From positions 62,001-126,000 of the forward strand of contig JAWQJJ010000003.1 in assembly GCA_033485155.1 (NCBI GenBank): DNA of 64,000 nt, given 5' to 3'. Below, one piece after another: positions 13,148 to 54,241 of this stretch. Both the position numbers and the translations under genes were made by a program. The number at the start of each line of letters is the position of its first letter. Positions within the stretch are counted from its first letter, which is position 1. This DNA comes from Methanomassiliicoccus sp. (lineage in GTDB: Archaea; Thermoplasmatota; Thermoplasmata; Methanomassiliicoccales; Methanomassiliicoccaceae). Under the pieces are notes generated by a model that had not been told where the DNA came from, did no database searches, and saw only the letters and a program-made list of their open reading frames with translations.

Positions 13148-13443
13148 TTACTCCTCGCCCTTCCGGTTCGCGACAGTAGCCATGCAGGATGAACAGTGGG
13201 AGGAAGCAATCGCCCTCGAGGAATGCGACGTCCTTCATGGCGCCGCTTCATCCGCAGCCGCAAGTAGGTCGGCCGAGCGCTTACTTGCCACCGCTCGTTA
13301 ACCGGGAAGCCCGCCTCATCGAGGACCCAATGCCTTCCTCTATCGTATCGACAGCAACGGATGGGATATCTTGCCTCTTGCCCCTGGTCTTCGAGCTGCA
13401 GTTGCTCGATGATCGCCTGGCCCCGATGATAAGAAGGGATCAT
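13148..13443 (-). pseudogene. Frameshifted copy of the zinc-ribbon gene found intact at 53945-54241
   Basis: The 5' half translates as MIPSYHRGQAIIEQLQLEDQ, then GQEARYPIRCCRY and HWVLDEAGFPVNERWQ, clearly homologous to the intact protein at 53945-54241. Zinc-ligand Cys are lost (CHQC has become YHRG and RCPICC has become RYPIRC). The C-terminal end (VANRKGEE followed by stop) is found in a different frame at 13148-13180, so at least one frameshift separates the halves. DNA similarity to the other copy is high over most of the length. A decayed duplicate. Confidence 0.7.
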
Positions 13444-52253: not shown

Positions 52254-52445
52254 CTCTTTTTCCCCTTATATTCAAGCGCGGGTATCATTCTGTTGGGCAG
52301 TCGTCGGCCTATTACCTGCTATATGAATTCTCAGTTGAGCATCGTCATGGATACGCTAATACTTACTCGTCGATGCGTTACACTTCTGACAATTTGGTTT
52401 TCACCATTCATAGACTACTGGCCTGAACGTTCATGCTTCGTCCGA

Positions 52446-52505
52446 TTACTCCTCACCCTTGCGGTTCGCGGCGATGCCGCCATGAGTCCAGGCGTCAGAT
52501 CGGAA
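52446..52505 (-). repeat. 3'-end remnant of the zinc-ribbon repeat family
   Basis: Bases 52446-52470 match 53945-53969 at 24 of 25 positions and 13148-13172 nearly as well. On the minus strand this gives ANRKGEE followed by a stop, the same C-terminus as the intact zinc-ribbon gene. Only the end of the gene is left. Confidence 0.6.
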
Positions 52506-52569
52506 TGACGATCAACCAAGAGCATTATTGTTATCTGAGTTGATATCGATAAAACTCGGAACACAAAAA

Positions 52570-52577
52570 TTTTAAAC
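52570..52577 (+). promoter_or_regulatory. TATA box upstream of the structured RNA candidate
   Basis: TTTTAAAC preceded by an A-rich BRE-like ACAAAAA. Measured 27 nt downstream, transcription would start near 52600, exactly at the base of the hairpin element. Confidence 0.5.
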
Positions 52578-52601
52578 CGAAGTACAAGTGGTCCGGTCCA
52601 A

Positions 52602-52693
52602 TAGGGAAGTCCCAACACAGAATCCTAAATAGATACGCATGCCTCCTATCATGCGTCCAGGACAGAGATCACCTTTCCTCTGGGACTTCCCTA
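52602..52693 (+). ncRNA. Candidate structured non-coding RNA, about 92 nt
   Basis: TAGGGAAGTCCCA (52602-52614) pairs perfectly with TGGGACTTCCCTA (52681-52693), closing a 66-nt interior. Inside, TCCT (52623-52626) pairs with AGGA (52659-52662) and ACGCATG (52635-52641) with CATGCGT (52650-52656). That gives a rod of three helices with internal loops. A TATA box lies about 27 nt before the first base. There is no open frame. It does not match tRNA, SRP RNA or RNase P RNA as I know them. It could also be a transposon-end structure. Confidence 0.5.
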
Positions 52694-53023
52694 GAAGTTT
52701 CCTGAACTTCAATTCAGTCATTCCATCGGTCTTGCTCACAATTATTATATTAGAAACATTATCTTTATAAGTATCTGTACTCCATTATGATAACGGTAGG
52801 GGCCAGGTCCTCCATAGCCTGAAACCATGCCTGGGCCTCATTTCACCTCGATGAACCCACCACAGTCATGGGGGCGCCTACCATTTATTGTTAAAACTAG
52901 CTGGCCATGCCATTATTCTTTTTAATCAGAGCAGATGGTAAGGATGATAGAGAATCTTTGTATGATTTTAGGATATATATCTATTTATTTTATGGAGATA
53001 ATATATTCTTAAGGATGCATTAA
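52694..53023. other. A/T-rich non-coding stretch
   Basis: No gene is seen. It holds A/T-rich promoter-like sequence (around 52980-53005) for the REC-PAS gene. Confidence 0.4.
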
Positions 53024-53842
53024 ATGAATGTACTATGCGTCGACGATGATGAGGAACTTCTGTATCTGACGAAAGTGTTCTTGGGCGAAGGTGGCACGAT
53101 CAACGTTACACCGGTATCCTCAGCGAACTCAGCTCTCGATCTGTTACGAAAGGGTGAGTACGATGCCATCATTTCCGACTACAACATGCCTGAAATGAAT
53201 GGCATCGATTTCCTGAAGACGTTGCGGAGAAAGGGCGATCGCACCCCTTTCATCTTCCTCACTAGCAGCGGGAGAGAAGAGGTCATCAAGGACGCGGTGA
53301 ACAACGGCGCGAACTCGTTTATCCAGAGGGGAGAGGGCATGGCCGCGTTCAGAAACCTGAGAAGCACCATGGTCCAACTATCTCAGGTGGGGGAGATGAC
53401 GCGGAAGTTCGCCAGGCGGGGAGATAATCCCCAGTCAGCCATATATGATTTCTCTGGACCAACTTGTCTATATCGGTCTGGCACGATGGTACACGCCAAC
53501 GCGGATTGCGCTCGATTGTTCGGGTTCGAAATAGTGAACGAGATGATGAACGAGCCGTCCCTGGCCTGGGCCCTGCCCGAACTTCATGAGGAGGTCCTGG
53601 ATCGACTATTGAACCTGGAACTTAGACGCACCTCTAACTTCATCCATGTGATGCCAATGCAACGTGCCGATGGTTCACGGTTCAAGGCCATGATCAACGA
53701 CACCCATATCGAGCTCGAGGATGGGCCTGCTTGCTTGATCAGATGCTGGGACATCAGTGATCATAAGAAGGTGAGCGGACCGCTTCAGGCTAGAATCAAT
53801 GGATCACGACCCGACCTAACATCTCGTTCTGATAATATGTAA
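53024..53842 (+). CDS. Response regulator with receiver and PAS domains
   Basis: 272 residues: receiver domain (LCVDDDEELL, phospho-Asp in IISDYNMPEMNG, switch Thr in FLTSSG) and a PAS domain (~145-255, CARLFGFEIVNEM). The conserved receiver Lys is replaced by Arg (FIQRGEG), which may alter phosphorylation. There is no DNA-binding or kinase output. Such REC-PAS proteins are common in methanogens and related archaea and usually relay to separate partners. No cognate kinase is adjacent. Confidence 0.82.
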   Translation: MNVLCVDDDEELLYLTKVFLGEGGTINVTPVSSANSALDLLRKGEYDAIISDYNMPEMNGIDFLKTLRRKGDRTPFIFLTSSGREEVIKDAVNNGANSFIQRGEGMAAFRNLRSTMVQLSQVGEMTRKFARRGDNPQSAIYDFSGPTCLYRSGTMVHANADCARLFGFEIVNEMMNEPSLAWALPELHEEVLDRLLNLELRRTSNFIHVMPMQRADGSRFKAMINDTHIELEDGPACLIRCWDISDHKKVSGPLQARINGSRPDLTSRSDNM

Positions 53843-53944: not shown

Positions 53945-54241
53945 TTACTCCTCGCCCTTGCGGTTCGCGACAGCAGCACCGCACTTCAGGTACCGGTGGG
54001 GGAAGCAATCGTCCGTCCGGTTCGCGGTCGATCTCATGGGACCGGCCCCGTTGCATTGTGTGCAACATGTCGGCCGGTCGCTCTCCTGCCATCGCTCGTT
54101 GACTAGGAAGCCCGCCTCATCGAGGACCCAATGCTTCCTCGCGTATCGACGGCAACAGATGGGGCATCTTGCCTCTTGCCCTCGGTCCTCGAGCTGCAGT
54201 TGCTCGATGATCGCCTGGCATTGGTGGCAGGAATCAATCAT
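53945..54241 (-). CDS. Zinc-ribbon hypothetical protein, intact member of a repeated family
   Basis: 98 residues with Cys pairs CHQC, CPIC (in RCPICCRRYARKHWVLDEAG), CCTQC and a final CGAAVANRKGEE. It looks like two stacked zinc ribbons. A degraded copy is at 13148-13443 and a 3' scrap at 52446-52505, so it belongs to a repeat family that duplicates within the genome. No transposase is seen beside it. Function unknown; possibly a small nucleic-acid-binding protein carried by mobile DNA. Confidence 0.65.
   Translation of the reverse strand: MIDSCHQCQAIIEQLQLEDRGQEARCPICCRRYARKHWVLDEAGFLVNERWQESDRPTCCTQCNGAGPMRSTANRTDDCFPHRYLKCGAAVANRKGEE

Follow-up and report, generated by a model that had tools for sequence, protein, structure and literature searches.

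Candidate family of stem-closed small RNA genes with a probable regulatory role in a Methanomassiliicoccus genome

Organization of the locus

The analyzed stretch of the Methanomassiliicoccus sp. genome (64 kb; hereafter the window) contains, on the forward strand, a candidate structured small RNA of approximately 92 nt (RNA A), followed by a second stem-closed small RNA gene (RNA B). The next same-strand gene after RNA A encodes a response regulator and is located at 53024, 330 nt downstream, with the RNA B unit and its own TATA box lying in between. Copies related to RNA A (family A) and RNA B (family B), as well as a singleton candidate (RNA C), were found elsewhere in the same genome. An archaeal source is indicated by FKBP26-type domains as well as by the BRE/TATA promoters. 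The coordinates of all features are summarized in Table 1.

Table 1. Positions of the RNA genes, promoter elements, and structural features. Plain numbers are window positions; prefixed positions refer to other loci of the source genome.
Feature	Position	Strand	Evidence
Conserved upstream block, possible regulator site, with A-rich BRE	52518–52570	+	Pairwise identity, five copies
TATA box of RNA A, TTTTAAAC	52571–52578	+	Conserved in five copies
RNA A, candidate ~92-nt structured small RNA	52602–52693	+	R2 76.9 bits, E 3.8e-17 in genome; fold z −4.0
Terminal stem, 5' arm, TAGGGAAGTCCCA	52602–52614	+	
7-bp internal hairpin, CCUCC exposed in loop (52642–52646)	52635–52656	+	Predicted fold; unpaired probability 1.0
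GATCACCT, 8-nt identity to 16S anti-Shine-Dalgarno tail	52667–52674	+	Shuffle p 0.028
Terminal stem, 3' arm, TGGGACTTCCCTA	52681–52693	+	
RNA B TATA box, TTTATAA, 24 nt before stem	52764–52770	+	Conserved at C11
RNA B, candidate small RNA gene with closing stem (one of two family B copies)	52795–52882	+	80% identity to C11 copy
Family A copy C9	G000:C9:75610–75706	+	Arm-pattern search of own genome
Family A copy C11a	G000:C11:47490–47583	+	Arm-pattern search of own genome
Family A copy C11b	G000:C11:91488–91579	+	Arm-pattern search of own genome
Family A copy C13	G000:C13:10023–10112	−	Arm-pattern search of own genome
RNA C, singleton RNA candidate	L044:4684–4771 (G000:C2)	+	TTTAAAC 25 nt before AGCCTCCCTAYTGG

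Predicted structure of RNA A

The two arms of the RNA A stem were 100% complementary, with 66 nt in between. The predicted fold had an energy of −34.8 kcal/mol, with z −4.0 relative to dinucleotide shuffles, and held two hairpins inside the stem: one with a 7-bp helix (52635–52641 paired with 52650–52656, loop CCUCCUAU) and one of 4+2 bp at 52659–52679. The arms and the fold thereby reproduced the perfect 13-bp inverted repeat with nested 4- and 7-bp helices that an earlier, sequence-only reading of the window (the initial annotation) had described. Its estimate that such a pair should arise by chance well under once in the window also held, as the expectation for a 64-kb window is 0.13 perfect stems (at least 13 bp, loop up to 100 nt). 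Since several such stems are expected across the 2.8-Mb genome, the inverted repeat alone is weak proof of an RNA gene.

A coding function for RNA A was rejected because the family A copies differ by indels of 1, 2, and 4 nt and have no frame in common, in agreement with the initial annotation, which had listed no reading frame here. A mechanically called 55-aa GTG open reading frame (52572–52739, minus strand) overlaps RNA A and is not kept in the other copies.

The fold predicted for the minus strand was somewhat deeper than that for the plus strand, and in copies C11a and C13 some internal pairs form only on the minus strand (G-U, as opposed to a C-A mismatch on the plus strand). Despite the deeper fold and better-fitting internal pairs, a minus-strand RNA was rejected because the sole conserved promoter reads toward the plus strand. 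Because of these pairs in C11a and C13, the interior fold proposed for family A beyond the terminal stem is tentative.

Family A in the source genome

Searching the source genome with the arm pattern GGGAAGN{58,88}CTTCCC exposed family A, which comprises the window copy and four further places with a similar interior. The RNA was conserved among the five copies, with a mean column identity of 65% (alignment A4). The terminal stem, with a 12-bp consensus, had 93% of its cells paired across the five sequences, and at three of the 12 pairs at least one copy had both bases replaced (e.g., C-G to U-A). Only 4 of 500 shuffles matched these values, and sliding the partner strand reduced the pairing to 39–80%. 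Conserved structure with compensating changes, as expected of an sRNA gene, was therefore found within five sequences; as family A is confined to one genome, this covariation rests on those five sequences and three pairs. Drift of the arms without compensation, which the initial annotation had named as evidence against its proposal, was looked for and not seen, the stem being paired in every copy.

The covariance model R2, which was built from the five family A copies, scored them at 75.7–82.3 bits (E approximately 1e-17 to 1e-18 per genome). Because these copies are the model's own training sequences, the scores show coherence only, and the independent evidence for family A is the conservation of the flanks and the base-pair changes rather than the R2 scores. 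A chance inverted repeat without function would be compatible with the expected frequency of 0.13 per window, or several per genome, but five homologues keep both the stem and the promoter, making this reading extremely improbable.

Outside the source genome, no convincing relatives of RNA A were recovered. When the window RNA was compared at the DNA level with 199 relatives, only its own genome and chance-level matches were returned, and a single-sequence covariance model run on 101 genomes matched RNA A itself only. With R2, neither 14 further genomes from the same taxonomic family nor, under stricter filters, 298 further genomes from the same class yielded a convincing match. The best R2 match outside the source genome (E 0.0039) was longer, at 125 nt, lacked similarity at the DNA level, and was taken as chance. 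No match was found in phage and plasmid records or, for the arm pattern, in IMG/VR, and a scan of genome_contigs with the arm pattern gave 64 places, none of which was labelled archaeal.

Rfam 15 recognized only two tRNAs in the window, with no family above the gathering threshold at the RNA genes. A search of 52300–53000 with E up to 10 gave one irrelevant weak match, and a search of all five family A and both family B loci with E up to 1 gave nothing at the RNA genes. Family A matches no catalogued RNA family, in line with the initial annotation's description of RNA A as an undescribed candidate.

RNA B in tandem with RNA A, and the singleton RNA C

BLAST between loci revealed a 146-bp block that is 80% identical between window positions 52741–52885 and G000:C11:91628–91771, covering both the promoter and the RNA. 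As this block lies downstream of both A copies, the window and C11b each carry a tandem of the two RNAs in the order A then B; the A–B spacer has diverged while both RNAs and their promoters are recognizable. The closing stem of RNA B, GGTAGG-(G)-GCC / GGC-(G)-CCTACC, surrounds approximately 75 nt and is extended by A-U pairs at C11 compared with the window copy. An 8-nt direct repeat, ATTCTCAT, flanks RNA B at C11 (L103, approximately 1545–1660) and was not seen at the window copy. RNA B and the additional genomic copies had been absent from the initial annotation.

An architecture scan of approximately 350 kb of the genome, which required a stem of 11 bp or more and a TATA box at the family distance, returned essentially the A, B, and C RNAs plus one other GC-rich stem; a looser scan of the window picked out RNA B independently, with A and B standing among a handful of others. 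RNA C has the same layout as A and B, with a different sequence and a near-perfect 14-nt stem; a paralogue of the window response regulator, 72% identical to it, is located 0.9 kb away.

The exact family B core had no match in genome_contigs. Three IMG/VR matches to an 18-nt family B core were rejected, as only 18–19 nt were shared, and a family B match in G015 (E 5.8e-5), which falls in coding sequence, was attributed to coincidence.

Promoter conservation and transcript boundaries

All five family A copies carry a TATA box of the TTTAAAC type, preceded by an A-rich BRE such as GCGAAATTGA, and in each the box ends 24–26 nt before the GGGAAG of the 5' arm. At the window copy, TTTTAAAC lies 23 nt from the first paired base (27 nt when counted from the TATA centre), which agrees with the spacing of about 27 nt given in the initial annotation for a TATA box with an A-rich BRE. 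A promoter at the normal start distance, as expected of an independent archaeal sRNA gene, was found for the five A copies and, as a TATA box 24 nt before the stem, for RNA B.

Mean pairwise identity among the five A copies was 0.18–0.30 beyond approximately 60 nt upstream of the TATA box, 0.47–0.48 between 60 and 20 nt upstream of the TATA end, and 0.60 in the last 20 nt up to the TATA end. It was 0.26 in the 24-nt leader between the TATA box and the stem, which is thus unconserved, and fell to 0.23–0.33 after the 3' arm, where no clear T-run terminator was shared by the five copies. Because the promoter and the transcript are conserved, whereas the leader and the downstream flank are not, this pattern argues for a transcription unit that starts at the stem; archaeal RNA polymerase positioned at the family A TATA box would be expected to start at the stem foot. 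Promoter spacing, stem, and boundaries together support the original proposal of an independent small RNA that has a TATA box of its own, is read from the plus strand, and starts near 52600. Within the upstream block, 20–60 nt before the TATA box, perfect palindromes are present in C9 (ATGAGATCTCAT) and C11a (GTGAATTCAC), and they are a possible operator for a shared regulator.

The same profile bears on whether the arms could be the terminal inverted repeats of a non-autonomous element (MITE), with the five copies as old insertions. Several dispersed copies with a common inverted repeat would fit such an origin, as would the TA at the start of the left arm and at the end of the right arm of the window copy, and the direct repeat around one family B copy. 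However, flanking repeats around the five A copies did not exceed chance, so that transposon ends with target-site duplication, a further refuting outcome envisaged in the initial annotation, were not seen for family A. Moreover, the conserved block extends approximately 85 nt past the left arm but stops at the right arm, and it holds a TATA box at a fixed distance even though the TATA–arm spacer is unconserved. The copies are also only about 65% identical and carry compensating changes, unlike young MITEs. Overall, we consider a MITE origin quite improbable.

The five aligned sequences make the family, the conservation of its promoter and stem, and its boundaries directly apparent. On this comparison, families A and B are very probably real RNA genes, and 52602–52693 is, with good probability, a member of a family of stem-closed RNA genes with a regulatory role.

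Neighbouring genes

Same-strand genes follow RNA A in the window (the response regulator) and the C9 copy, an arrangement compatible with a cis-acting role as leader, riboswitch, or attenuator of that gene. In C11a and C11b, however, the next downstream gene is convergent on the opposite strand, and because these two of the five copies face a convergent gene, family A does not behave as a leader. In the window, the second TATA/RNA unit intervenes before the response regulator, and the genes downstream of the five copies are mutually unrelated. A leader function is therefore very unlikely.

The surroundings also include a family of small (~96-aa) zinc-ribbon proteins, located at window 53945–54241 (minus strand), window 13261–13443, L044 4190–4486, L077 6245–6535, and L177 6060–6355. 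The window zinc-ribbon copy had no Pfam match.

Possible mode of action

Alignment of family A revealed a central position that is C-rich in all five copies (CCUCC, UCCUCC, AUCCCC, AUCCC, and AUCCC), with an unpaired probability of 0.57–1.0. Comparison with the generally known sequence of the 16S anti-Shine-Dalgarno (anti-SD) tail showed that the window copy of RNA A holds GAUCACCU (8 nt of the tail) and both B copies hold UCACCUC (7 nt each); C11b had an identity of 7 nt. For A and B combined, the identity gave p 0.002 against dinucleotide shuffles, with the two B copies not being independent, and none of 300 shuffled targets scored as high. Family A alone gave p 0.033, and C9, C11a, and C13 individually showed no anti-SD excess (p 0.54–0.98). 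In the source genome, the regions before starts are enriched in Shine-Dalgarno (SD) motifs (5-mers, 19% vs 7%), making sRNA–SD pairing possible. In duplex energies with start regions, the RNAs were not consistently better than shuffled RNAs.

These features suggest a model in which families A and B would be trans-acting regulatory sRNAs. The BRE/TATA promoter would drive RNA A from the foot of the terminal stem, and the stem would join the 5' and 3' ends and thereby protect both. Pairing of the exposed C-rich segments (CCUCC, AUCCC, and AUCACCU) with the SD regions of their mRNA targets would prevent initiation, and the conserved block before the TATA box would place the copies under one shared regulator. 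We infer transcription, the regulatory role, and SD masking from sequence features, and the trans-acting mechanism has only moderate support. Family A most likely regulates other genes, perhaps through masking of ribosome-binding sites; that SD masking is the main mode of action has somewhat less than an even chance.

Alternatively, the RNA genes could be real but act as a scaffold or sponge by binding protein, perhaps the nearby zinc-ribbon proteins, instead of pairing with mRNA. The terminal stem and the C-rich segments are kept while the rest varies, and of the six RNA loci examined, three have a zinc-ribbon paralogue within approximately 1.3 kb (window 53945–54241, L077 6245–6535, and L044 4190–4486), both of which would suit a protein partner. 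Against this, the zinc-ribbon copies at window 13261–13443 and L177 6060–6355 have no detected RNA of such layout nearby, and no zinc-ribbon gene was present in the flanking DNA examined around the other three RNA loci. We regard protein binding as unlikely, and the link between the RNAs and the response-regulator and zinc-ribbon genes is suggestive only.

Returning to the pairing model, RNAs A, B, and C might form a set that grew by duplication along with response-regulator and zinc-ribbon genes, with a shared upstream control element, as a lineage-specific network for anti-SD control of translation; we offer this tentatively and consider it rather doubtful. No archaeal multicopy sibling-sRNA system of the closed-stem, anti-SD kind was found in the literature searched.

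The family, the promoter, and a predicted mode of action are available for only a few archaeal sRNAs, and none were found described for Methanomassiliicoccales in the literature searched. The five-copy family provides built-in replicates, with the promoter kept and the interior variable, and together with the duplicated two-RNA locus it offers a clean experimental entry. It also illustrates that the paralogues of a single genome can validate an RNA where cross-species comparison is empty.

Comparison with known systems

Like family A, MITEs are dispersed short sequences with inverted repeats; family A differs in its promoter-type conservation outside one arm, its lack of target-site duplication, and its diverged copies with compensating changes. 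The archaeal box C/D and H/ACA guide RNAs resemble RNA A in being small, stable, and often closed by a terminal stem, but the family A stem is far longer. Inspection of the window copy revealed neither a C box (RUGAUGA) nor a D box (CUGA), and there was no Rfam match to such guides.

Among regulatory RNAs, sRNA162 of Methanosarcina mazei masks a ribosome-binding site via a linker (PMC3510493). Like sRNA162, candidate A is an intergenic sRNA of an archaeal methanogen, and the masking of a ribosome-binding site by a single-stranded segment, known for sRNA162, is a predicted function of RNA A. The two have different folds, as the linker of sRNA162 lies between helices, whereas the corresponding segment of RNA A lies inside a closed terminal stem, and they show no Rfam-level similarity.

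Listeria monocytogenes LhrC1-5 comprises five sRNA copies with redundant UCCC motifs of the SD-binding kind, and UCCC-type sRNAs, LhrC among them, are proposed to act by SD masking (PMC4132741). Family A has no Rfam match and hence no detected homology to LhrC. The two are nonetheless alike in having five short, structured siblings in one genome, C-rich segments in loops or single strands, and a common promoter control element, which in family A is a putative one. LhrC differs in being bacterial, with near-identical copies and a terminator hairpin, whereas family A is closed by a long terminal stem.
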